Made by a program: the position numbers and the translations under genes
The notes under the pieces: model-generated
Seen by the model: only the letters and a program-made list of their open reading frames with translations
Databases searched by the model: none
Told to the model about the DNA's origin: nothing
Shown: in pieces, positions 44,469 to 59,303 of the stretch
How the letters are laid out: each line of letters opens with the position of its first letter
Position numbering within the stretch: the first letter of the stretch is position 1
DNA from: Lachnoanaerobaculum umeaense
GTDB taxonomy: Bacteria > Bacillota > Clostridia > Lachnospirales > Lachnospiraceae
Assembly (NCBI RefSeq): GCF_003589745.1
Contig: NZ_CP032364.1
Location: 930,001-994,000 of the forward strand
DNA: 64,000 bases
Direction: 5' to 3'

Positions 44469-46256
44469 GTGAGCAAAGGAAGAAAAATCAGGCTGATTAT
44501 TTTAATAGTATTTATTGTACTTATTGCACAATATGTATTAACTCATGCAAAAAGAAAACTGATTATAAGGGATAATATATTATATGGTATTAAAGATGGC
44601 ATATTTGAGAGCAAGTACAGTATGAAAGAGTTGACTGTTCCTACAGGAGTTAAAGAAATAGATAAATATGCCTTTATAGGTTGTGAGAATTTGGAAGTCG
44701 TGGAATTGCCGGATACACTTGAAAGTATTGGTGAGCTTTCATTTTTAAGTTGCAGAAAACTGGAATATATTAAAATACCGGGAAATGTGAAAGTTATTGA
44801 ATCGTCAGTATTTTTGGGATGTTCACAATTGAAAAATGTGGAATTACCGGATAGTTTGGAAAAACTGGGGATGGGAGCATTTAGTGATTGTACGGCTTTG
44901 GAAAAAATAAGTATTCCTGCCGGAGTAGAGGAGATCGGTGAATCCACTTTTTTAAACTGTAAAAATTTGGAGTCAGTAGAACTGAATGAGGGTCTAAAAA
45001 ATATAGGCAGTGAGGCTTTTTTGGGTTGCGAGAAAATCAGAAGTATAAAAATCCCTGATTCTGTTGAGAAGATAGGAAGTGCTGCCTTTAAAGACAGCAA
45101 AAAACTTTCCGATATAAAGATGTCTAAGGGAATAGAGTATATTGGAGAAGGTGCATTTGAAGGTACAAAGTATTATGAGAGAGGTCTGTGGGAAGATGAG
45201 GAGGGCATATATATAGGCGAGGCTCTGATAAAATATGAGAATAAAGGCAGTGAGATAAGGGTAAGAGAGGGCACAAGAGTAATTGCAGGCAAAGCCTGTG
45301 CCGATTTGCCTGATTTATATACAGTTGAATTGCCTGAAAGCCTTATAGCTATAGGTAATGATGCTTTTGCAAATTGTAAAAGTCTTAAAAATATAAATAT
45401 GCCCGTGAATCTGAAAGATATTGATAGCAGAGCTTTTTTTGAATGTAATATAGAGAGTTTGAATATACCTGCAAGCGTAAAGAGTATAGGAAGAGAGGCA
45501 TTTGCCAATTGCAGAAATTTATCAGAGGTAGAGATGATGGAAACGCTGAATATAGTAGGTGTACGAGCCTTTGAAAACACATATTGGCTTGAACATTTAG
45601 AAAAAGATGAATATGGCTGTAAATATTTTCAAAATATACTCTTTGAATATGTAGAGGGAGAAAGCCATGTTAAAGTCAGGGAAGGAACAAAAAGCATAAG
45701 TGGTGAGGCGTTTTTAAATTCCGACAGATTGGAAAAAATAGATATCCCAAAAAGCGTGGAAATGATAGGCATGGAAGCTTTTAGCGGATGTAAAAATTTA
45801 AAGGAATGTATATTTGAAGAAGAAAGTAATATCAAAATAATTTATGTTGGAGCTTTTAAAGAATGTACAAGTATTAAAGAAATAAATATTCCTGAGAGTA
45901 CAAAATATTTGGGGGCTCAAGCCTTTAAAGACTGTAGCTCTTTGGAGAAGATTGTATTTAGAGAAGGATGCGATATTAAAGAATTAAATATGGAAGCATT
46001 TTCAGGTTGTTCTAATTTAAGAGAGATAAGTTTACCGTCAAAGTTGGAAGAGATAAATTATATGGCTTTTTCATATTGTGAAAGCCTGGAAGAAATAAGA
46101 TTTCCGGAAAATACAAAGTATATAGACAGCTCATCCCTTTTTATATGTAAGAATCTAAAGAGAATAGAAGTACCTTTAAGTATAAAAAGTGATTTTAGAA
46201 TAGTTGAAAAAAAGCTTAATTTCGAGAAGGTATACCCTGAAGTTATATATTATTAG
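44469..46256 (+). CDS. BspA-like leucine-rich-repeat protein, membrane-anchored
   Basis: The 595-residue protein has an N-terminal membrane anchor (about 7-23) with no lipobox or cleavage site, then about 18-20 LRR_5 repeats of roughly 23 residues of the form I-P-x-G-V-x-x-I-G-x-x-A-F-x-x-C-x-x-L. Two inserts, each holding a segment like VREGTRVIAGKAC, interrupt the array near 250 and 395. BspA-like proteins act in adhesion and aggregation outside the cell. The start is GTG with AGGAG 8 bases upstream. A near paralog follows after 39 bases. Confidence 0.9.
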   Translation: MSKGRKIRLIILIVFIVLIAQYVLTHAKRKLIIRDNILYGIKDGIFESKYSMKELTVPTGVKEIDKYAFIGCENLEVVELPDTLESIGELSFLSCRKLEYIKIPGNVKVIESSVFLGCSQLKNVELPDSLEKLGMGAFSDCTALEKISIPAGVEEIGESTFLNCKNLESVELNEGLKNIGSEAFLGCEKIRSIKIPDSVEKIGSAAFKDSKKLSDIKMSKGIEYIGEGAFEGTKYYERGLWEDEEGIYIGEALIKYENKGSEIRVREGTRVIAGKACADLPDLYTVELPESLIAIGNDAFANCKSLKNINMPVNLKDIDSRAFFECNIESLNIPASVKSIGREAFANCRNLSEVEMMETLNIVGVRAFENTYWLEHLEKDEYGCKYFQNILFEYVEGESHVKVREGTKSISGEAFLNSDRLEKIDIPKSVEMIGMEAFSGCKNLKECIFEEESNIKIIYVGAFKECTSIKEINIPESTKYLGAQAFKDCSSLEKIVFREGCDIKELNMEAFSGCSNLREISLPSKLEEINYMAFSYCESLEEIRFPENTKYIDSSSLFICKNLKRIEVPLSIKSDFRIVEKKLNFEKVYPEVIYY

Positions 46257-46295
46257 GATTTCTTGGATAAAGACGAATCGGAGGGGAGGATAAAT

Positions 46296-47984
46296 GTGGA
46301 TCGAAAAAATAAAAACACTAAAATATATGCAATTACTATAACAGGTATAGTAATCATCATATTTTTATGTTTCTTTCTGAGTAAATTAAAATGTAAGCAG
46401 ATTATAGAAGATGATGTTTTTCTGGGTATAAAAAGTGGCCTTTTAGAAAAAAGAGACAGCATTACAAAAGTGGAAATACCAAAAGGAGTTACAGCTATAG
46501 GTGATAGGGCATTTTATAATTGTACCGGTCTGGAAAGTATTGTTATACCGGAAGGAGTCACATCCATAGGTGAAAGCGCATTTTATAATTGTATCAATCT
46601 GGAAAATATTATTATACCGGAAACTGTTAAAAAAATAGATATTAATGCTTTTGATAATTGCGTAAAAATAGAGTATATAAAATTACCTGATAATTTGGAA
46701 ATAATACAGACAGGGGCTTTTTATAATTGCAGTTCATTAAAAAGTATTAAAATTCCTAAAGCTGTGGATGCCATTTATCCCGAAGTATTTTTAGATTGTA
46801 ATTCTTTAGAGGAGGTTTCCTTTTTAGGAAATATAATTGAAATAAATAATAGTGCTTTTGAGGGTTGTGAGAAACTTAAAACAATAAAACTGCCGGAGAG
46901 TCTTGAAAGAATAGATGAACGTGCCTTTAATAATTGCAGCAGCTTATCAGATATAAATATACCGGATGGGATACAAGCTGTGGGGGAAGATGCTTTTTCG
47001 GGAACTTATATTCTTAAAAAAATAGATATTGATGAATATGGTTGTGCATATATGGGAAAGGTATTGATATACAGTAAGGAAGAAAAAGAGTATATTAAGA
47101 TTAAAGATTCTACCAAAGTAATTGCAGACGGCGTATTTGACAATTATGAAAATTTAAAGCATGTTGAATTTCCTGACGGCTTGGAGAGAATAGGAAATAA
47201 CAGCTTTAGATCTTGTAAATCTTTGGAAGAAATAAGTGTCCCTGAGGGAGTAAAGAGCATAGGTGGATTTGCCTTTGCATATGCGGGATTAAAAAAGGTG
47301 GATTTACCTGAGACTGTAGTGGAAATAGATGATTATGCGTTTATGGAATGTATACATTTATCTGAAATAAATTTGCCGAAGAATATAGAAAATATCGGTC
47401 ATAGGTGTTTTAAGAATACAGATTATCTGCTGGATATGGAATCTGATGAGTATGGCTGTAAATATGTTGGGGATATACTTCTTGGATACACAGGTAAAGG
47501 TGCTAAAAGAATAAAAATTAGAGACGGAACAAGACTGATAGCGGAAGGGGCTTTTGAAGACAGGGAGTTTATAGAAGGGGTATATATACCTAACAGTGTT
47601 GAGATAATGGGAGAGTATGTATTTTATAATTGTTTCGCCTTAAAAGAGGTGTATTTTCAGGAAGATAGTAGACTTAGCGAATTAAAGCAGATGACATTCG
47701 GAGAATGTATATCTTTGGAAGAAATAGAATTGCCTGAGGGCTTAAAGAAAATACAAGATAATGTCTTTGTAAATTGTGCTTTTAAAAGTCTGACGGCACC
47801 TGAAAGCATAGAATATATACATCCCTATGCTATTATGCAATGTGATATGCTTGAAGAGATAAGAGTACCGAAAAAACTTGAGAGTGAATATTTTTTGGGA
47901 GAAATATATTTTTTAGAAGATGAATATCATTCAAAATATGAAATAAATGAGAGATATAAAAAACCGGATATTGTATTCTATTAA
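46296..47984 (+). CDS. second BspA-like leucine-rich-repeat protein
   Basis: This 562-residue paralog has the same plan: N-terminal anchor (about 9-29), LRR_5 repeats (GVTAIGDRAFYNCTGLESIVIPEGVTSIGESAF...), and two inserts with IKDSTKVIADGVF and IRDGTRLIAEGAF segments. I choose GTG 46296, 6 bases after GGGGAGG; an in-frame TTG at 46263 lies upstream of that site and would add 11 residues. It ends with the same PxVxxY-type tail (PDIVFY) as the first (PEVIYY), so the pair arose by tandem duplication. Confidence 0.9.
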   Translation: MDRKNKNTKIYAITITGIVIIIFLCFFLSKLKCKQIIEDDVFLGIKSGLLEKRDSITKVEIPKGVTAIGDRAFYNCTGLESIVIPEGVTSIGESAFYNCINLENIIIPETVKKIDINAFDNCVKIEYIKLPDNLEIIQTGAFYNCSSLKSIKIPKAVDAIYPEVFLDCNSLEEVSFLGNIIEINNSAFEGCEKLKTIKLPESLERIDERAFNNCSSLSDINIPDGIQAVGEDAFSGTYILKKIDIDEYGCAYMGKVLIYSKEEKEYIKIKDSTKVIADGVFDNYENLKHVEFPDGLERIGNNSFRSCKSLEEISVPEGVKSIGGFAFAYAGLKKVDLPETVVEIDDYAFMECIHLSEINLPKNIENIGHRCFKNTDYLLDMESDEYGCKYVGDILLGYTGKGAKRIKIRDGTRLIAEGAFEDREFIEGVYIPNSVEIMGEYVFYNCFALKEVYFQEDSRLSELKQMTFGECISLEEIELPEGLKKIQDNVFVNCAFKSLTAPESIEYIHPYAIMQCDMLEEIRVPKKLESEYFLGEIYFLEDEYHSKYEINERYKKPDIVFY

Positions 47985-50050: not shown

Positions 50051-50518
50051 ATGGACGAGAAAACAAATGTAATGAGACTTTTGGATCAAAAGAAGATAAA
50101 ATATAATCACTATTCATATATAGATACTCCGGCAACAAATGGAGTGGAGGTGGCAGAACTACTAGGTCAGGATGAGAGAAGAGTTTTTAAAACTTTGGTA
50201 ACAGTCGGTAAGAGTAAGGCAAACTATGTTTTTGTTATACCTGTAGCTGAGGAACTTAATTTAAAGTCGGCAGCAAAAGCAGTAGGTGAGAAGTCTATAG
50301 AAATGTTAAAATCAAAAGATTTGCTACCACTTACAGGATATATTCATGGCGGTTGTTCTCCTATAGGGATGAAAAAAAGATTTACCACTGTGCTGGATTC
50401 TACAGCCTTGGATTTTGAAAATATAATATTTAGTGCCGGCAAGATAGGGTATCAGGTGGAAATGTCTCCAAAGGATCTGGAAAAAATTCTGCCTTTAAGC
50501 TTTGCCGCATTGACATAG
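50051..50518 (+). CDS. ybaK: YbaK/EbsC-type Cys-tRNA(Pro) deacylase
   Basis: The 155-residue protein matches YbaK: TNVMRLLDQKKIKYNHYSY, then VFKTLVTVGKSKANYVFVIPVAEELNLKSAAKAVGEKSIEML and GYIHGGCSPIGMKK. It hydrolyses Cys mischarged on tRNA(Pro), protecting translation fidelity. The ribosome binding site is weak. A ribosome-associated fusion protein gene follows after 9 bases. Confidence 0.92.
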   Translation: MDEKTNVMRLLDQKKIKYNHYSYIDTPATNGVEVAELLGQDERRVFKTLVTVGKSKANYVFVIPVAEELNLKSAAKAVGEKSIEMLKSKDLLPLTGYIHGGCSPIGMKKRFTTVLDSTALDFENIIFSAGKIGYQVEMSPKDLEKILPLSFAALT

Positions 50519-50527
50519 GATAACATT

Positions 50528-53137
50528 ATGATAAATATTGGAGTATTGGCACATGTAGATGCCGGAAAGACCACACTGATAGAGGCAATTCTTTATAAAA
50601 CCGGAAAGCTTAGAAAAACCGGAAGAGTGGATTTTGGAAATAGCTTTTTGGACAATGATGAGTATGAGAGAAAAAGGGGTATTACCATATTTTCAAAAAT
50701 TGCCAGAACAAGTATAGACGGTATAGATATAAATATTATAGATACTCCGGGGCATGTAGATTTCAGTGCTGAAATGGAAAGAACAATATCTATAATGGAT
50801 ATTGCAATACTGGTAATTAGTGGAAGTGATGGTGTACAATCACATTCACATACACTTTTCAGGTTATTAAGAGAGGCAAATATACCTACTATAATATTTG
50901 TAAATAAAATTGACAGTGAAAAGTTTGATAAAGAAAAAGTATTGTACGGCTTGAAAAAGTCACTTTCAAATAATATTGTGGACTTTTCAAATGAAAATAA
51001 GATGCTGATAGAAGAAGCGGCATCATGTGATGAAAAACTTATAGAAAAGTTTATTGAAGGAGAGGAGATATTAAAATCCGACATAAGCTTTTGTATAGAA
51101 TCATCAAAGATATTTCCTACAATATTTGGTTCGGGTCTTAAACTAATAAATATAGAGGGAATACTTGATCTTATAAAAGAATATATAAATGAGAAAAAAT
51201 ATCATGATGAGGTTTCCGGCATAATATATAAGATAAAATATGATGAGAACGGAAACAGACTTTCATTTATAAAGCTATTAGGTGGAAATATTCGTGTAAA
51301 GGACACTCTATTTGATGAGAAAATAAATCAGATAAGAGCTTATGATGGTGAAAAATACACTACTTTAGATATAGCTAATGCAGGAGATATCATAGCAGTT
51401 ACCGGAATATCAAAATCTCATGCAGGGGATACCTTTGGAAATATAAAAAGTCCAAGTCAAAAACTTCTACCTGTACTTAGTTACAATATGGTTTTCTCAG
51501 ATGATGTAAGTATAAACCAAATATATCCTAAACTTATTCAGATATTTGATGAGATACCTGAAATAAGGATGGAGTACGATGAGGAACTTGCTAAAATTAA
51601 GGTCAATCTGATGGGTGAAGTTCAGATAGACTTGATAAAAAATCTCATCAGTGAAAGACTTCGACTAAACTGTGATTTGATAGATGGTGGTATTATATAT
51701 AAGGAGAGCATAGTAGGATATATTGAGGGTGTAGGACATTTTGAGCCTTTGAAGCATTATGCAGAGGTACATATACTTATCTCAGAGGGAGAGAGAGGAA
51801 GTGGTGTTATATTTGCAAATGAGGTATCTGATGATGAGCTTCCAAAGAACTACCAAAGTCAGGTAAGAAATATTGTAGAAAGCTCAAAGTTTAGAGGAGT
51901 ACTGACAGGCAGTGAGCTTACAGATGTAGTTCTTACTTTAGTTGCAGGAAGAGCACATGAAAAGCATACTGAGGGAGGAGACTTTCTTGAAGCAGTACAT
52001 AGGGCGGTCAGACATGGACTTATGTATGCCAAATCCATACTTTTAGAGCCTTATTATGACTTTGAGATAAATATTCCTATGACTTCACTGGGAAGACTAT
52101 TAAATGATCTAGGCAATATGAATGCTGAGGATATAAGTTATGATGGAGTAGAAACTCTAAGAGTTAGGGGTTTTGCACCTACCATAAATATACAAAACTA
52201 TGGAAGCACGCTTTTGTCATATACCAAAGGACTTGGTCAGATAAGTTTTAGTCTCAGGGGTTTTTTACCATGTCATAACTTAGAGGAAGTAATAGGAAAT
52301 AGCTCATATTTGGCAGAGTTTGATACAAAAAACACTCCGGATTCTATATTTTGTTCTCATGGTGAGAGTTTTATAGTACCTTGGAGTGAAGTATTTAACT
52401 ATATGCATTTACCATTAAAGAAGTTTGAACTGGTAAAGGAAGAGGAGAAAGTAGAAACAATCAGATCTACATATGATGCTTCAAAAGCTGACAGCGAAGA
52501 ACTGATGGCAATATTTGAAAGGACCTATGGAAAGATTACACCAAGGATAGGAGATTGGGATACTCCTATAAAGAGAACTCCTGAAAAAGAATATGTATAT
52601 AAGGAGAGAGAAAAAAAGAAACACTACTTATTGGTGGATGGATATAATATTATATTTGCTTCAAAGGTCTTGAGTGAACTTGCCGAGATAAATATAGATT
52701 CTGCCAGAGATAGACTAATAGAACTTCTGATAGATTATAAGGCATATAAGGACTATGAAATAATCTTGGTATTTGATGCTTATAGACTTGTAAATCACCC
52801 TACAGAAGTACAAAACTTCTCCGGATTATATGTTGTATATACAAAAACTGCTGAAACAGCCGATCAATATATAGAAAAGACTACACATGAAATGATAAAA
52901 AAGTATGATGTAACAGTGGCTACATCAGATGGTATAGAGCAAATTATTATAAGAGGTAAGGGAGCTATACTGATTTCAGCCAGAGAATTTTTAAAGGACT
53001 TGGAAGAAACCAAGGAAGCTTTCAGAAAAGAACATATAGAAAAGACAACAGTTACAAACAGGCTTTTTGATTCTTTAAAGGGAGATTTGAAAGAAAAAAT
53101 AGAAAATATAAGACTTGGTAAAAAAGAAGAGCCCTAG
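50528..53137 (+). CDS. TetM-like translation GTPase fused to Rae1/YacP-type NYN endonuclease
   Basis: The 869-residue protein has two parts. Residues 1-660 follow the ribosomal-protection-protein/EF-G plan: G1 AHVDAGKTT (8-16), RGIT (50-53), DTPGH (72-76), NKID (126-129), and EF-G-like domains II-V with LLEPYYDFEINIPM. The loop where TetM has its tetracycline-probing YSPVSTPADF reads GRAHEKHTEGGDF (474-486), so drug resistance is doubtful. After a charged linker, residues 698-835 match B. subtilis Rae1 (YacP): LLVDGYNII (Asp 704), VFDAY (Asp 750), ETADQYIE (Glu 776, Asp 779), ATSDGIEQ (Asp 801), GKGAILISAREFL. Rae1 cleaves mRNA in the ribosomal A site. Expected action: GTP-dependent docking and mRNA cleavage on ribosomes (inference). 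Confidence 0.9.
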   Translation: MINIGVLAHVDAGKTTLIEAILYKTGKLRKTGRVDFGNSFLDNDEYERKRGITIFSKIARTSIDGIDINIIDTPGHVDFSAEMERTISIMDIAILVISGSDGVQSHSHTLFRLLREANIPTIIFVNKIDSEKFDKEKVLYGLKKSLSNNIVDFSNENKMLIEEAASCDEKLIEKFIEGEEILKSDISFCIESSKIFPTIFGSGLKLINIEGILDLIKEYINEKKYHDEVSGIIYKIKYDENGNRLSFIKLLGGNIRVKDTLFDEKINQIRAYDGEKYTTLDIANAGDIIAVTGISKSHAGDTFGNIKSPSQKLLPVLSYNMVFSDDVSINQIYPKLIQIFDEIPEIRMEYDEELAKIKVNLMGEVQIDLIKNLISERLRLNCDLIDGGIIYKESIVGYIEGVGHFEPLKHYAEVHILISEGERGSGVIFANEVSDDELPKNYQSQVRNIVESSKFRGVLTGSELTDVVLTLVAGRAHEKHTEGGDFLEAVHRAVRHGLMYAKSILLEPYYDFEINIPMTSLGRLLNDLGNMNAEDISYDGVETLRVRGFAPTINIQNYGSTLLSYTKGLGQISFSLRGFLPCHNLEEVIGNSSYLAEFDTKNTPDSIFCSHGESFIVPWSEVFNYMHLPLKKFELVKEEEKVETIRSTYDASKADSEELMAIFERTYGKITPRIGDWDTPIKRTPEKEYVYKEREKKKHYLLVDGYNIIFASKVLSELAEINIDSARDRLIELLIDYKAYKDYEIILVFDAYRLVNHPTEVQNFSGLYVVYTKTAETADQYIEKTTHEMIKKYDVTVATSDGIEQIIIRGKGAILISAREFLKDLEETKEAFRKEHIEKTTVTNRLFDSLKGDLKEKIENIRLGKKEEP

Positions 53138-53160
53138 CAAATGCCGGGGCTCTTTCTTTT
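53127..53160. terminator. bidirectional terminator between the fusion gene and the feo operon
   Basis: AAGAGCCC (53127-53134) pairs with GGGCTCTT (53147-53154), followed by TCTTTT on the plus strand and CTTTTTT on the minus strand. Confidence 0.9.
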
Positions 53161-53357: not shown

Positions 53358-55511
53358 TTATATTTTAGCTTTTACAGTAGAAGCTTTTTCTTCAGAAGGC
53401 TTGCGTACAAGACCGTAAATAATAGCTACGATTCCGATAAATCCGAAGATTGTACCGACACCGAACTTACCTGTAAGGATAAGTGAACCCACCTGATATA
53501 TAATCATTGCTACGATATATGCAAATCCACATTGATATCCTACAGCAGTCCAGAACCATTTTACACTGCTCATCTCTCTTCTGATAGCACTCATCGCTGC
53601 AATACAAGGAGCACACAGAAGGTTGAATACAAGGTATGAATATGCTGAAATAGGTGTGTAATCAGCTCTTAAAAGATCCCAGATACCCTTACCGGTATCC
53701 GCATCGAAATCGGAAACATGGTATAGAATACCGAATGTACCTACGACATTCTCTTTTGCCATAAGTCCTGTGATGGCTGCAACTGCAGGCTTCCATGTAC
53801 CCCATCCAAGAGGAGCAAAAATCCAAGCAAATGTGTTTCCGATATTTGCAAGTAGCGATAAATCCATCTGATCTTCAGCAAGATATGTAAATGAACCTTC
53901 TACAAATCCGAAATAGCTGAGAAACCATATAAGGATAGTTGCAAGTGTAATAACTGTACCTGCCTTTTTTACGAAGCTCCAACCTCTTTCAGCCATTGAT
54001 CTGAGGATTGAACCTGCTGTAGGAAGGTGATATGCAGGAAGCTCTATAACGAACGGTGAAGGATCACCTGAAAACAGCTTGGTCTTCTTAAGCATGATAC
54101 CTGAGACGACAATAGCGGCAATACCTACAAAGTAAGCTGATGAAGCAACCCATGCGGCATTATTAAACAATGCACCTGATATAAGTGCTATAACAGGAAG
54201 CTTTGCAGAACATGGAATAAATGTTGTTGTAATAATCGTCATTCTTCTGTCATGCTCACTCTCAATAGTTCTTGAAGCCATAATTCCCGGAACACCGCAA
54301 CCTGTACCTATAAGGATTGGAATAAAGCTCTTTCCTGAAAGTCCGAATCTTCTGAATACTCTGTCCATAACGAATGCAATTCTCGCCATATATCCACAGC
54401 CCTCTAAGAAAGCGAGGAAGAAGAAGAGTGTAAGCATCTGAGGAAGGAATCCGAGCACAGCTCCTACACCTGCGATAATACCATTTACAATAAGACCTAC
54501 AAGCCAATCAGCTGCACCTACAGACTCAAGGAAGCTCTGAGCACCCGGCTGAATAATTTTTTCAACAAGTATATCATTTACCCAGTCAGTCATTGCTGTA
54601 CCGACAGTAGTAATTGAAATATAGTAAACCACAAACATAATAGCTGCGAATATTGGAAGTCCCAAAATTCTGTTTGTAACGATTTTATCAATCTTATCTG
54701 AAAGACTTACATAGTTTTTATTTTTAACTTTATAAAAACTTGCAATTACATCAGATATATAGTTGTATCGCTCTGATGTGATAATACTTTCAGCTTCATC
54801 ATCCATAGCATCTTCACATTTTGTTATGATCTTTTCAATATCGGCAAGAGTACTTTCTGAAAGATTTAACTGCTCAATAGCCTTGTCATCTCTTTGGAAT
54901 AACTTTACTCCATACCATCTCTTTTGGTTCTCAGGTACACTGCTTGGAAGAAGATGTATGATTTCCTTTACAGCATCCTCTACATGCTTATCAAACTGGT
55001 GCTGTACCTTTGGAAGGGCACGATTTTTTGCAATTTCTATTGCCTTTTCGGCTGCATCCATAACTCCGGTACCCTTAAGTGCTGAAATCTCAACAACAGG
55101 ACAGCCAAGCTTTTCGCTCATCTTATCCAGATCAAGTTTATTTCCGCTCTTCTCAAGTACATCAAGCATGTTTACTGCGATTACAACAGGTACACCTAAC
55201 TCTGTAACCTGTGAGGTAAGATAGAGGTTTCTCTCAAGGTTTGTACCGTCAATGATATTAAGTATCGCATCAGGCTTTTCATTGAGAACATAGTTTCTTG
55301 CTACAACTTCCTCCAATGTATATGGAGATAGAGAATAAACACCGGGAAGGTCTGTAATAATAACATCAGTATGTCCTTTAAGCTTTCCTTCCTTTTTCTC
55401 AACAGTAACACCGGGCCAGTTTCCTACAGTTTGGTTTGAACCTGTCAAGGCATTAAATAAAGTAGTTTTACCGGTATTTGGGTTTCCGGTAAGTGCAATT
55501 CTAATTGCCAT
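53358..55511 (-). CDS. feoB: ferrous iron transporter FeoB
   Basis: The 717-residue protein has an N-terminal GTPase domain (G1 GNPNTGKT 9-16, DLPGVYSLSPYTLEE G3 region, NMLD), a helical spacer, and about ten membrane segments. These include two Gate-type motifs with conserved Cys (GTGCGVPGIMASRT and LLCAPCIAAMSAI). It imports Fe2+ across the cytoplasmic membrane under anaerobic conditions. It lies between feoA and the small Cys-rich protein gene. Confidence 0.97.
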   Translation of the reverse strand: MAIRIALTGNPNTGKTTLFNALTGSNQTVGNWPGVTVEKKEGKLKGHTDVIITDLPGVYSLSPYTLEEVVARNYVLNEKPDAILNIIDGTNLERNLYLTSQVTELGVPVVIAVNMLDVLEKSGNKLDLDKMSEKLGCPVVEISALKGTGVMDAAEKAIEIAKNRALPKVQHQFDKHVEDAVKEIIHLLPSSVPENQKRWYGVKLFQRDDKAIEQLNLSESTLADIEKIITKCEDAMDDEAESIITSERYNYISDVIASFYKVKNKNYVSLSDKIDKIVTNRILGLPIFAAIMFVVYYISITTVGTAMTDWVNDILVEKIIQPGAQSFLESVGAADWLVGLIVNGIIAGVGAVLGFLPQMLTLFFFLAFLEGCGYMARIAFVMDRVFRRFGLSGKSFIPILIGTGCGVPGIMASRTIESEHDRRMTIITTTFIPCSAKLPVIALISGALFNNAAWVASSAYFVGIAAIVVSGIMLKKTKLFSGDPSPFVIELPAYHLPTAGSILRSMAERGWSFVKKAGTVITLATILIWFLSYFGFVEGSFTYLAEDQMDLSLLANIGNTFAWIFAPLGWGTWKPAVAAITGLMAKENVVGTFGILYHVSDFDADTGKGIWDLLRADYTPISAYSYLVFNLLCAPCIAAMSAIRREMSSVKWFWTAVGYQCGFAYIVAMIIYQVGSLILTGKFGVGTIFGFIGIVAIIYGLVRKPSEEKASTVKAKI

Positions 55512-55520
55512 ATTAGCTCC

Positions 55521-55745
55521 TTATCTGGTAATTTCAATTTTTTCTGCATCTTCTTTTCTAATAGAAAGCTCATATCCTCTTACAGTAACCTCAATAGGGT
55601 CGCCAAGAGGTGCTACCTTGCGTACATGGATAGATGTACCCTTTGTAACACCCATATCCATGATTCTTCTCTTTACAGGACCTTCGCCATGAACTCTGGC
55701 AACAGTAACTGTATCGCCGATTTTTACATCTCTTAAAGTATCCAT
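55521..55745 (-). CDS. feoA: FeoA protein
   Basis: The 74-residue SH3-like protein (VKIGDTVTVARVHGEGPVKRRIMDMGVTKGTSIHVRKVAPLGDPIEVTVRGYELSIRKEDAEKI) is a standard FeoA, a cytoplasmic partner of FeoB. AAAGGAG precedes the ATG. feoB starts 9 bases after its stop. Confidence 0.95.
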   Translation of the reverse strand: MDTLRDVKIGDTVTVARVHGEGPVKRRIMDMGVTKGTSIHVRKVAPLGDPIEVTVRGYELSIRKEDAEKIEITR

Positions 55746-55854
55746 TCTGTGCTCCTTTCTGTATTTTGAGTAAAACTGAACATATACAATGGATTTCCCA
55801 TTGACAAATGTAAATACTAAATATCCTCTTTAATCAATAAAATTTGCGGATGAT

Positions 55855-56067
55855 TTAGACCATGATTTTTGCGGCTAACTCCTTGCTTACTGCCACTCTG
55901 GAATCCTTGACATTAACGATCAAATTTCCGGACATAGCATTTACAACTGAAATCTTGCCGTCTACAACAAAGCCTAGGGTCGCCAAAAAAGTTTTATCCT
56001 TCTCACGACCACCAATTTGCTTTATGGTGTATTCTTCTCCTAAATTAGCCATAAGTAAAGGTATCAT
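55855..56067 (-). CDS. second FeoA-like protein
   Basis: The 70-residue protein (LLMANLGEEYTIKQIGGREKDKTFLATLGFVVDGKISVVNAMSGNLIVNVKDSRVAVSKELAAKIMV) is a divergent FeoA with the same SH3-like fold. GGAGGG precedes the ATG. It lies 109 bases upstream of the first feoA and is the first gene of the operon, next to the metal-box region. Double feoA is usual in Clostridia. Confidence 0.9.
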   Translation of the reverse strand: MIPLLMANLGEEYTIKQIGGREKDKTFLATLGFVVDGKISVVNAMSGNLIVNVKDSRVAVSKELAAKIMV

Positions 56068-56108
56068 AATCCCTCCTTTTCTTTAAACATATCAAATACA
56101 TTCTATAG

Positions 56109-56124
56109 GTTAGCATACACTAAC
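56109..56124. promoter_or_regulatory. DtxR/IdeR-like operator box 1 (feo side)
   Basis: GTTAG-CATACA-CTAAC, a 5+6+5 inverted repeat 42 bases before the distal feoA start. The form TTAG-N6-CTAA matches binding sites of DtxR-family metal repressors. Confidence 0.72.
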
Positions 56125-56151
56125 GTTAAAAGCAATATATTTTTAAGAAAA

Positions 56152-56167
56152 GTTAGATTTAGCTTAC
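56152..56167. promoter_or_regulatory. DtxR-like operator box 2 (degenerate)
   Basis: GTTAG-ATTTAG-CTTAC, one mismatch from the other boxes, 43 bases from box 1. Confidence 0.5.
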
Positions 56168-56181
56168 TGAATTTGTTGCAT

Positions 56182-56197
56182 ATTAGCGAAAACTAAC
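56182..56197. promoter_or_regulatory. DtxR-like operator box 3
   Basis: ATTAG-CGAAAA-CTAAC, with the same 16-base geometry, 30 bases from box 2 (start to start). Confidence 0.68.
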
Positions 56198-56272
56198 TAA
56201 AAAGTACTAAAAAAAAAACAATATTTGACGTTTAAAAGACGTGTAATCCGTAAATTTTCTATTTACAATGGT

Positions 56273-56320
56273 TTGACTTTATGATATATTCTTACTGTAA
56301 TAAATTTTACAAAATATAAT
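56273..56320 (+). promoter_or_regulatory. promoter(s) of the DUF6110/P-type ATPase operon
   Basis: Two overlapping candidates are visible: TTGACT (56273-56278) with TGTAAT (56296-56301), and TTACTG (56292-56297) with TATAAT (56315-56320), each with a 17-base spacer. The second places the start of transcription inside operator box 4. Confidence 0.65.
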
Positions 56321-56327
56321 TGTCATT

Positions 56328-56343
56328 ATTAGTTTACGCTAAC
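56328..56343. promoter_or_regulatory. DtxR-like operator box 4 (ATPase side)
   Basis: ATTAG-TTTACG-CTAAC lies 7 bases after the TATAAT at 56315 and 14 bases before the DUF6110 start, where bound repressor would block initiation. Confidence 0.72.
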
Positions 56344-56357
56344 TTTAGGAGGTTAAT

Positions 56358-56624
56358 ATGTTTTTACTTAATGGTTTTGGATGGAAGAAGTTTGGTTTAT
56401 TTGCAGCAGGTACACTTTTTGGAACAGCAGGTATTAAGTTACTTTCAAGCAAGGATGCAAAGAAAGCTTATGCACAGGGAACAGCAGCTGTACTTCGTAT
56501 GAAGGAGTGCGTAATGGATACAGTTTCATGTGTTCAGGAGAATGCTAGCGATATTTTAGCAGAAGCTAAGGACATCAATGAAGAGCGTGCAGCAAGGGAA
56601 GCTGAAGGAAATATTGAAGAGTAA
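56358..56624 (+). CDS. DUF6110 small membrane protein
   Basis: The 88-residue protein has a membrane-associated N-terminus (FGLFAAGTLFGTAGIKLLSSKDAKKAYAQGTAAVLRMK) and a helical acidic C-terminus (INEERAAREAE). This is the DUF6110 pattern seen next to P-type ATPases in Lachnospiraceae. It may be a small accessory subunit or chaperone of the ATPase. AGGAGG precedes the ATG. The ATPase gene follows after 85 bases. Confidence 0.82.
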   Translation: MFLLNGFGWKKFGLFAAGTLFGTAGIKLLSSKDAKKAYAQGTAAVLRMKECVMDTVSCVQENASDILAEAKDINEERAAREAEGNIEE

Positions 56625-56709
56625 TTTCTCTTTTCAGTAATATAGTTTTTTTGTAATAAGGAAGAGTTTATCTCTTCCTTAAATTTTATAGAAAGATTAG
56701 AGGATTAAA

Positions 56710-58794
56710 GTGAATTGTAAAATTTTGCATGAGTCAAAGAACAGAATGCGTGTACGCATGGCTCAAAAGAGAATGTCTATAAAAGAAGCTGATATGCTTC
56801 AATACTATTTGGAAGGCTTTGAATTTATAAGAAAAGCTGTAGTATATGAAAGAACCTGTGATGTTGCTATATATTATAAGAATGATAATAGGAACGCAGT
56901 TATAAATAAATTAAAAAAGTTTGACTACAATAATACTGCATTGATTGAAAGTATGCCAAATACTTCAGGAAGACAGATTACAAGAGATTTCCAAGAGAAA
57001 ATGGTGGGAATGCTCATGTTTACCGGTGTGAGAAAGATGTTCTTCCCAAACATCATCAACAATATTTATACAATTGTTAAGGCCGCTCCATATATTTATA
57101 AAGGCCTTAAATGTCTGTTCAAGTTAAAATTTGAGGTTGATTTGCTTGATGCATTGTCAATAGGTATATCTATTGCACAGGGTAATTTCTCAACAGCCGG
57201 TTCACTTATGCTTTTACTTGGTGTAGGTAATGAGCTTGAAGATTGGACACATAAGAAGTCTGTTGACGACCTTGCAAGAAGTATGTCATTAAATGTAGAT
57301 AAGGTATGGCTTGTAACAGATGACGGTGAGGTTTCAGTACCTATTTCACAGATTCAGTCAGGTGATACCATCAGAGTACATACAGGAAATATAGTACCTG
57401 TTGACGGAGAGATGGTAAGCGGAGAGGCTATGTTAAACCAAGCATCTCTTACAGGTGAGTCCGTACCTGTAGAAAAGAGAGCAGGCTCAAGAGTCTATGC
57501 CGGAACGGTTGTTGAAGAGGGTGAATGTCTCTTAAAGGTAGCCGCAACTACAGGACAGAGCAGATATGATAAGATTGTTTCTATGATTGAAGAGAGCGAA
57601 AAGCTTAAATCAAATACCGAAAACATGGCAAACAGACTTGCAGACAGACTTGTACCTTATTCATTGCTTGCAACAGGACTTACATATCTGTTTACAAGAA
57701 ATGTAACAAGAGCATTGTCTGTTCTTATGGTGGATTTTTCATGTGCATTGAAGCTTTCTATGCCTCTTGCAGTACTTTCGGCAATGAGAGAGGCCGGAAA
57801 TGACAAGATTACCGTAAAGGGCGGAAAGTTTATGGAGGCGATTGCAAATGCCGATACTATCGTATTTGATAAGACAGGTACACTTACATATGCCTGCCCG
57901 AAGGTACAAAGAATTATCGGAATTGACGGAGATGATGAGAATCAGCTCTTAAAGATTGCCGCATGCCTTGAGGAACACTATCCTCACTCAATTGCAAATG
58001 CCGTAGTAAAAGAGGCTAAAGACAGAAAGATTCGTCATAAAGAGATGCATTCTGAGGTGCAGTATATAGTTGCACACGGTATTGCAAGTAAAATAGAAGG
58101 CGACAAGGTTGTAATAGGAAGCTATCATTTTGTAATTGAAGATGAAAAAGCACAGCTTAGTGAAGATGCTAAGAAAAAGCTTTCAGAGCTTGATCACAGA
58201 TATTCACATCTGTTTATGGCTATTGCAGGAAGGCTTGCAGCTATTATTGAGATTGCAGATCCTCTAAGAGCCGAAGCAAAGGATGTTTTAAAGAAATTAA
58301 AGGCTCTCGGAATCAAAAAGACTGTTATGATGACAGGAGATAATATCTATACAGCCGAAGCTATTGCAAAAGAGGTAGGAGTAGATAAATTCTATGCTGA
58401 AGTATTGCCTGAGGATAAGGCAAGCTATGTGGAAAAAGAAAAAGCAAAGGGCAGAACCGTAATAATGATCGGTGACGGTATAAACGATTCACCTGCATTA
58501 TCGGCTGCAGACTGCGGTATTGCCATAAGTGAAGGTGCGGCAATTGCCAGAGAGATAGCGGATGTATGTATATCCGCTGACGATTTAAATGATCTTGTAA
58601 GATTAAAAGAACTTTCAAATAAGCTTACAAGAAGAGTTCACTCAAACTTCAGATTTATTATGGGATTTAACGGTTCTCTGATAGGTCTTGGTATTTTGGG
58701 AATACTCTCACCCGGTACATCATCACTTTTACATAATTTATCAACAGTTGGAATATCGCTTACAAGTATGACCAATCTGTTGCCGGAAATCTAA
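56710..58794 (+). CDS. heavy-metal-type P1B ATPase lacking the CPC motif
   Basis: The 694-residue protein has a degenerate N-terminal metal domain (no CxxC), then P-type ATPase marks: TGES (248-251), DKTGTLT with phosphorylated Asp 387, and GDGIND (588-593). In the membrane segment where P1B pumps carry CPC, SPC or TPC it reads DFSCALKLS, with Cys 345 and no Pro. The metal is therefore uncertain; control by DtxR-like boxes suggests iron or manganese. The start is GTG with AGAGG upstream. A second gene of the DUF6110 operon, it ends with a terminator. Confidence 0.88.
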   Translation: MNCKILHESKNRMRVRMAQKRMSIKEADMLQYYLEGFEFIRKAVVYERTCDVAIYYKNDNRNAVINKLKKFDYNNTALIESMPNTSGRQITRDFQEKMVGMLMFTGVRKMFFPNIINNIYTIVKAAPYIYKGLKCLFKLKFEVDLLDALSIGISIAQGNFSTAGSLMLLLGVGNELEDWTHKKSVDDLARSMSLNVDKVWLVTDDGEVSVPISQIQSGDTIRVHTGNIVPVDGEMVSGEAMLNQASLTGESVPVEKRAGSRVYAGTVVEEGECLLKVAATTGQSRYDKIVSMIEESEKLKSNTENMANRLADRLVPYSLLATGLTYLFTRNVTRALSVLMVDFSCALKLSMPLAVLSAMREAGNDKITVKGGKFMEAIANADTIVFDKTGTLTYACPKVQRIIGIDGDDENQLLKIAACLEEHYPHSIANAVVKEAKDRKIRHKEMHSEVQYIVAHGIASKIEGDKVVIGSYHFVIEDEKAQLSEDAKKKLSELDHRYSHLFMAIAGRLAAIIEIADPLRAEAKDVLKKLKALGIKKTVMMTGDNIYTAEAIAKEVGVDKFYAEVLPEDKASYVEKEKAKGRTVIMIGDGINDSPALSAADCGIAISEGAAIAREIADVCISADDLNDLVRLKELSNKLTRRVHSNFRFIMGFNGSLIGLGILGILSPGTSSLLHNLSTVGISLTSMTNLLPEI

Positions 58795-58802
58795 TATAAG
58801 TG

Positions 58803-58830
58803 GTCGGACATCCTTGGGTGTCCGACTTTT
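58803..58830 (+). terminator. terminator after the P-type ATPase gene
   Basis: GTCGGACA (58803-58810) pairs with TGTCCGAC (58819-58826), with extra inner pairs, followed by TTTT. Confidence 0.9.
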
Positions 58831-58859
58831 GTAAAACTGTGAGAAAAGATTGTAAAAAA

Positions 58860-58888
58860 TTGATTTTTACTTTGATGTTGGTTATAAT
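58860..58888 (+). promoter_or_regulatory. promoter of the DtxR-family gene
   Basis: TTGATT (58860-58865), a 17-base spacer and TATAAT (58883-58888). Downstream a direct repeat CATAGTA occurs twice (13-base period) before the GGAGG. No TTAG-N6-CTAA box is visible here. Confidence 0.72.
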
Positions 58889-58937
58889 ATTTACTGACAT
58901 AGTATGACTACATAGTACAATTTAAGAAGGAGGATAT

Positions 58938-59303
58938 ATGGTTATACAAGAAGCTGCAGAAATGTATTTGGAGACAATTCTTAGACTGAAGAATAAGACA
59001 GGCGTAGTAAGAGCTGTAGATATAGCAAGAGAAATGGGATATTCAAAGCCTACTATCAGTGAGCAGATGAAAAAATTCAGAGAGAACGGATATGTTGAAG
59101 TAAACAATGAAGGGCATATATCATTGACTTTAAAGGGAATGGAGATTGCAGAATCTACACTTGAGAGACATAATGTTTTGGGAGTTATATTACAAAAGAT
59201 CGGAGTAAGCAAGGATACAGCTATAGAGGATGCATGTAGAATAGAGCATTATATAAGCGAAGAGACATTCCAATGTTTGAAGGACTATTTTAGAGATAAA
59301 TAG
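58938..59303 (+). CDS. DtxR/MntR-family metal-dependent repressor
   Basis: The 121-residue protein has the winged helix (AAEMYLETILRLKNKTGVVRAVDIAREMGYSKPTISEQMKKFRENGYV) and the dimerization domain with metal residues (LERHNVLGVILQKIGV, EDACRIEHYISEETF). It lacks the C-terminal SH3-like domain of DtxR, so it resembles MntR in length. It probably binds Fe2+ or Mn2+ and represses the feo and ATPase operons through the boxes at 56109-56343. Confidence 0.93.
   Translation: MVIQEAAEMYLETILRLKNKTGVVRAVDIAREMGYSKPTISEQMKKFRENGYVEVNNEGHISLTLKGMEIAESTLERHNVLGVILQKIGVSKDTAIEDACRIEHYISEETFQCLKDYFRDK

Follow-up and report, generated by a model that had tools for sequence, protein, structure and literature searches.

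Why would a translational GTPase carry a complete Rae1-type nuclease at its C-terminal end? The question is raised by a gene in the window analyzed here, the whole 64,000-nucleotide stretch of the Lachnoanaerobaculum umeaense genome at positions 930,001 to 994,000 of contig NZ_CP032364.1 (assembly GCF_003589745.1). The two-domain reading in the preliminary description of this DNA was borne out: one unbroken frame of 869 codons encodes an EF-G/Tet-type GTPase followed by a complete Rae1/YacP NYN domain in Pfam searches. The frame is not due to chance, because a database search with the fusion protein returned relatives of 868–871 residues at 74–97% identity, and six genomes, five of Lachnoanaerobaculum and one of 'Lachnospiraceae oral taxon 107', encode the same protein at 82–89%. 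Here we establish the architecture of this protein, with its intact motifs and predicted folds, the signature of its GTPase family, the near absence of free Rae1 from genomes with the fused form and the loss of rae1 from its usual slot.

50528..53137, + strand: whole fused gene, 869 codons plus stop; intact open reading frame from ATG to stop, with full-length relatives

The fused gene displaces free rae1

We counted the fused and free forms in 393 class-level genomes with the NYN_YacP profile, calling each form by the length of its open frame and not by gene-by-gene reading. NYN_YacP was present in 250 genomes, of which 136 carried the fused form, 113 the free form and one (G290) both; the fused gene is therefore found in about a third of the sample. 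By frame length, 112 of the 250 were of free size, 130 of fused size and eight intermediate or cut. Six of these eight were assigned to the fused form (five split over contigs or frames, one presumed), one to the free form, and one was left unassigned; the presumptive calls are G191 (451 residues, fused) and G292 (342 residues, free). Five genomes had more than one match, and in G290 alone were a fused and a free gene both real: the second match fell below the family cut-off in G126, G180 and G214, and in G376 it was a relic. Under independence, about 60 genomes would be expected to hold both forms, and one does. In a second, phylum-level sample of 299 genomes, which overlaps the first, NYN_YacP was found in 163, with a single match in 162 and two free-size copies in one; 18 rows among the matches listed were of fused size. 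In G050 and G241, the GTPase and NYN parts occupy separate adjacent frames of one contig, and the gene there looks broken or mis-sequenced.

We then compared the places that the two forms occupy. A free rae1 is typically a gene of about 170–190 codons beside rlmB and a sigma factor gene, a pattern from which the present gene departs with its 869 codons and its location elsewhere. Among 24 stand-alone rae1 loci, 23 have the sigma factor in the same stretch and 20 also rlmB, and one (L038) has neither. The free gene of G290 follows this order, with a Ribonuclease_3 protein (mrnC-like), a SpoU methylase (rlmB-like), rae1 and a sigma factor. In 30 genomes with the fused gene, rlmB was found in all, and in 20 the sigma factor follows within 26–595 bases, so that the ancestral rlmB–sigma factor slot is kept without rae1; in the other 10, the sigma factor was not found in the available stretch after rlmB, which in one case is only 56 bases long. 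In the related genomes G001, G003 and G005, the rlmB stretch is without rae1. Decayed rae1 sequences lie between rlmB and the sigma factor in G103 (L156) and G028 (L165), both among the 30, and in G376 (L112), which was read separately; all three carry the fused gene elsewhere in the genome. The empty and decayed slots, together with the copy still intact in G290, suggest that the resident rae1 was repeatedly lost after the fused gene arrived. The fusion has displaced free Rae1 from its place in many genomes, and this replacement fits a shared job for the two.

As for phages, 113 phage records match the fusion, two of them with a coverage of at least 80%. The better one, MT835514.1, a 'Bacteriophage sp.' scaffold marked unverified, was rejected as a phage-borne copy: all 10 of the other proteins scanned hit cellular families, including AddB, UvrD, subtilase, FeoB, Zip, MraW and a tRNA synthetase, and the scaffold is probably a bacterial contig.

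The GTPase half belongs to a family of its own

The domains of the GTPase half are as follows.

50531..51190, + strand: G domain, residues 2–221, with AHVDAGKT, RGIT, DTPGH and NKID (Pfam GTP_EFTU, E = 6.9e-50)
51212..51436, + strand: domain II, residues 229–303 (Pfam EF-G_D2)
51743..52030, + strand: domain IV, residues 406–501 (Pfam EFG_IV, E = 1e-14)
51737..51772, + strand: first segment of the domain IV tip, HFEPLKHYAEVH, residues 404–415; signature of the GTPase family, fused and unfused
51956..51985, + strand: second segment of the domain IV tip, HEKHTEGGDF, residues 477–486 (alignments with TetM and the family)
52040..52276, + strand: domain V, residues 505–583 (Pfam EFG_C)
52277..52408, + strand: structured C-terminal extension, residues 584–627, with S606, F608, C609, G612 and H627 (alignment and predicted model)

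The features of the EF2/EF-G superfamily that were checked are present, namely GTP_EFTU, domains II, IV and V, the G1–G4 motifs and the histidine of DTPGH. The GTPase motifs claimed from the sequence could be located from G1 to G4, and the checked residues of G1, G3 and G4 are invariant across 48 relatives (28 fused and 20 unfused).

TetM and TetO are the nearest relatives of solved structure by sequence, and share with this protein the five-domain EF-G-like plan, with 29% identity to TetM in a structural alignment. The protein differs from them in its additional linker and nuclease and at the tip of domain IV. Alignment of the 48 relatives gives a family signature of HFEPLxHYAEV plus KHTxGGDF, and HEKHTEGGDF aligns with the loop III stretch YSPVSTPADF of TetM. 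This stretch reads [K/R/Q]HTxGGD in all 48, save one with KHTEPPD; the Tet-type proteins of G108 and G382 carry SPVSTP. The best-scoring NCBIfam model is tet_protect, but its 371.5 bits fall short of the curated cut-off (775), whereas a 500-residue piece of the Tet-type protein of G108 reached 805.8. The half also misses the EF-G cut-off, with 232.5 bits against the 659.4 of TIGR00484. The earlier label 'TetM-like' needs correction: the drug-contact loop is not that of TetM and the curated score is missed. By sequence, we regard the GTPase half as a distinct EF-G/Tet-like family of translational GTPases.

The nuclease half has a predicted Rae1 fold

52628..53113, + strand: Rae1/YacP NYN endonuclease domain, residues 701–862 (Pfam, PDB sequence match, conservation and predicted fold)

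NYN_YacP matches residues 701–862 with E = 4.7e-45 and 154 bits, against a cut-off of 24.6. The nearest characterized relative is Rae1/YacP of Bacillus subtilis (5mq8 and 5mq9; sequence E = 4.7e-20), which shares the NYN fold and the acidic residues and is a free protein, with 181 residues in the solved chains, in contrast to the domain tethered here behind a GTPase. Since Foldseek and VIA-align searches with the whole model list GTPases, the domain was modeled apart (residues 695–869, with 36 aligned NYN sequences as input), giving a predicted local distance difference test (pLDDT) score of 89.1 and a predicted template modeling (pTM) score of 0.77. The predicted model matched Rae1 5mq9 with a Foldseek E of 7.0e-11 and a template modeling score of 0.69–0.72 by query length, and three Rae1 chains (5mq9 and 5mq8) were its sole PDB matches below E 0.001. 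The NYN fold, on whose absence the preliminary description would have been abandoned, is thus predicted.

Conservation was assessed in 55 fusions of less than 80% identity, drawn from 117 of the closest database matches. The five acidic residues named earlier (D704, D750, E776, D779 and D801) stand at their positions; four are 100% conserved and E776 94.5%. E776 is unlikely to be essential, because several relatives have Gln there. When the NYN domains of 30 fused and 28 free forms were compared, the residues invariant in both were D704, N707, F749, D750, T772, A778, D779, I782, E783, V797, D801 and Q805; E783 is thus in the invariant set and E776 is not. The two forms also differ: Arg815 is present in 28/28 free and 12/30 fused domains, Lys760 in 24/28 free and 1/30 fused domains, and residue 710 is Phe, Tyr or His in the fused domains, unlike in the 28 free class-level forms. 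The mean net charge is −5.5 for the fused domains versus 0.04 for free Rae1. As the fused domains are mostly of one lineage, these contrasts amount to one or two on the tree and prove nothing alone; the idea that basic residues were lost to suit a tethered domain was rejected on this ground.

A long linker with one conserved helix

52409..52621, + strand: linker, residues 628–698, mostly of low confidence, with pLDDT below 50 at 637–655 and 667–694
52499..52528, + strand: conserved linker helix ELMAIFERTY, residues 658–667 (predicted model and alignment of 55 fusions)

Across the 55 fusions, the linker measures 71–145 residues, with a median of 80. Its motif E-x3-I-x2-R-T is nearly invariant (E658 in 55/55, I662 in 52/55, R in 45/55 and T666 in 50/55), and the helix is possibly a docking motif. 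The full-length model (pLDDT 80.5, pTM 0.57) contains the GTPase domains, the ordered extension to about residue 627, the linker helix at 656–667 and the NYN domain.

The GTPase also occurs unfused

We searched the 393 class-level genomes with the GTPase half, scoring three candidates per genome and searching 27 genomes again. Free GTPases were found as frames of about 620–730 residues that share the tip and C-terminal extension of the fusion, and 20 aligned ones end at or shortly after the conserved H627, where the linker of the fusion starts. By score and length, a free GTPase is present in 27 genomes, in 25 of which the signature was also read. Free Rae1 accompanies it in 21 and NYN is lacking in six; the remaining non-fused genomes comprise 92 with free Rae1 and 137 without NYN (Fisher p = 3e-4, uncorrected for kinship). 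Two genomes were scored as GTPase-negative: G382 (E = 3e-107), with the first signature segment only, and G136 (E = 1.2e-89), whose locus shows no signature. Weak matches elsewhere (E = 1e-60 to 1e-80) were for the most part left unread. Of the matches outside the family that were read, L139 and L144 have SPVSTP, and L133, L134, L137, L138 and L147 have neither signature. One unfused member lies beside rpsN on the megaplasmid pMP118 of Ligilactobacillus salivarius UCC118 (L154, 3968–5902), where the record names it a tetracycline resistance protein.

In the GTPase tree, 21 fused rows and this unfused L. salivarius protein form one supported clade, although the method was a quick one and several rows were of odd composition. 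In the NYN tree, the fused domains cluster with 2–3 label changes, and a single fused clade was not rejected (p = 0.376 in the AU test). A single origin of the fusion is thus allowed by the trees, and the long-branched copies of G007, G204 and G342 could be separate fusions. In G290, the free rae1 and the fused NYN do not group together, so descent of the fused domain from the resident rae1 is not supported. The free NYN of G215 (L038, 1483–2004, − strand) falls inside the fused cluster and lies away from the rlmB slot; the GTPase of this genome is of the unfused kind, and its NYN may have split from a fusion or been acquired.

What the fusion may do on the ribosome

We give about even chances to the protein being a Rae1-type endoribonuclease that acts on stalled ribosomes while tethered to a translational GTPase in the same chain, which perhaps also gates it. 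Ribosome binding, GTP hydrolysis and translation-dependent cleavage would be expected by analogy with the named families, and the available text on Rae1, the nearest characterized nuclease relative, describes mRNA cleavage in a translation-dependent manner. In B. subtilis, S1025 was the first Rae1 substrate to be characterized (PMC11780869). The order of events and the gating of cleavage by GTP are conjecture. In the scheme that we consider, the GTP form of the GTPase would bind a ribosome with an empty, stalled A site, and the tip of domain IV would probe the decoding center. GTP hydrolysis would let domain IV go, and the NYN domain on its tether of 71–145 residues would move into the vacated A site and cut the mRNA, after which rescue of the ribosome would be possible. 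A hand-over is proposed because two bodies cannot occupy one A site together. For the same reason, the self-delivery first imagined from the shared site would have to be sequential, as the shared site argues against simultaneous action. Eukaryotes split comparable work between a GTPase-delivered factor and a nuclease. The more specific version, a ribosome-surveillance nuclease with a built-in GTPase and an A-site hand-over, with the free GTPase and free Rae1 acting elsewhere as partners in trans, is a tentative one that we hold possible but rather doubtful.

Several points weigh against a gated nuclease. The two halves would be competitors for a single A site, and the tether might serve co-expression only. 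The whole-model pTM of 0.57 is uninformative on the domain arrangement, and we found no biochemical evidence for any family member. NYN_YacP is dispensable, as 143 of the 393 genomes have none. Kinship alone may explain why free GTPase and free Rae1 occur together, six genomes have the free GTPase without any NYN, and with three candidates scored per genome free GTPases may be undercounted. Finally, the acidity and the Arg815 loss of the fused NYN domains could reflect an altered substrate or a lost ribosome contact.

In one alternative, the halves have separate jobs: the GTPase would help ribosomes to recover or recycle, as a factor like EF-G, LepA or BipA, and would be joined to a plain Rae1 for co-expression and shared recruitment only, with no GTP gating. 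The persistence of unfused GTPases and of free Rae1, the six genomes with a GTPase and no NYN, the long low-confidence linker and the competition for one site all agree with it. The conserved linker helix, and the fact that genomes with the fused form almost never keep a free Rae1, suggest more than co-expression, without being decisive, and we consider separate jobs unlikely. A tetracycline-type ribosomal protection protein with an acquired RNase domain that provides a further means of resistance, as suggested by Atkinson 2015 and implied by database names, appears improbable. TetM and TetO are the best solved-structure relatives, tet_protect is the best NCBIfam model, family members are named 'TetM/TetW/TetO/TetS family' in databases, the available text of PMC4342817 suggests a resistance mechanism, and loop III of Tet(M) tolerates some substitutions according to the accessible part of PMC4750697. 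Against this stand the score of less than half the cut-off that the G108 piece exceeds, the replacement of loop III in 48/48 aligned relatives, and the presence of the fused gene in about one-third of the class sample, where it displaces a resident chromosomal gene. The evidence favors a housekeeping ribosome-directed mRNA nuclease over a role in tetracycline resistance. An enzyme of ribosome assembly or rRNA/tRNA maturation, with the GTPase on subunits and the NYN domain trimming RNA, is likewise improbable: NYN domains have been proposed for such maturation (cited in the available text of PMC4342817), BipA, a relative of EF-G, has been tied to maturation of the large subunit (PMC8313970) and free rae1 adjoins genes for a Ribonuclease_3 protein and a SpoU methylase of the rlmB type, but Rae1, the closest characterized nuclease relative, is described as an enzyme acting on mRNA during translation.

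Relation to earlier reports

A GTPase–NYN fusion has been in print since 2015. The available text of Atkinson 2015 (BMC Genomics 16:78, PMC4342817) reports a YacP-like NYN domain in "Tet" proteins from ten species of Clostridiales; it deals with the fusion in two sentences, besides one mention in the Background, and considers a possible new mechanism of resistance. These proteins come from the same broad taxon and share the architecture of a clostridial EF-G/Tet-like GTPase with a YacP NYN domain behind it, and they very probably belong to the family studied here. Relative to that text, the present analysis adds the non-Tet tip of domain IV, the unfused sister GTPase, the displacement of rae1 and the count of 136/393 genomes. 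In the open-licence literature, we found no functional study of the fusion, and did not find the census, the slot loss, the tip signature or the free GTPase in print, some of which Condon 2018, a paper on the distribution of Rae1, could already mention.

Neighborhood of the fused gene

50051..50518, + strand: tRNA_edit gene (YbaK/Cys-tRNA(Pro) deacylase-like, Pfam PF04073), 9 bases 5' of the fusion ATG
53127..53160, + strand: inverted repeat followed by a T-run, AAGAGCCC...GGGGCTCTTTCTTTT, overlapping the stop codon, spotted by eye

The upstream tRNA_edit gene and the fusion are possibly co-transcribed, and from its sequence the inverted repeat with its T-run is a possible terminator; the hairpin scan, which permits loops of 3–8 only, missed it. 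The setting after radA and a Cys-tRNA(Pro) deacylase gene was confirmed insofar as Pfam identifies both, the RadA-like neighbor by matches to KaiC-type ATPase, zinc-ribbon and ChlI. Both neighbors recur at L001, the one Lachnoanaerobaculum locus compared, and were not found at the other fused loci compared, outside the genus. They therefore say little on function. Fused loci outside the genus share at most 1–2 neighbors, in few pairs, and gene neighborhood was rejected as a functional clue. Iron or metal genes (FeoB, a P-type ATPase and an iron-dependent repressor in Pfam) adjoin the fusion at 53358–59303, and two neighboring genes at 44469–47984 encode long proteins that, as judged by eye, resemble leucine-rich-repeat proteins and have a hydrophobic segment at the N terminus.

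Implications

If the proposed role is true, the family would represent a Rae1 with its own GTPase switch, making testable how a ribosome-dependent endonuclease finds the A site and times its entry. In other clostridia, Rae1 would then have a candidate partner in the free GTPase family. In addition, the name 'TetM/TetW/TetO/TetS family tetracycline resistance protein' is attached to some genes of a family whose role may well be a housekeeping one, and this possible role matters for counts of resistance genes.
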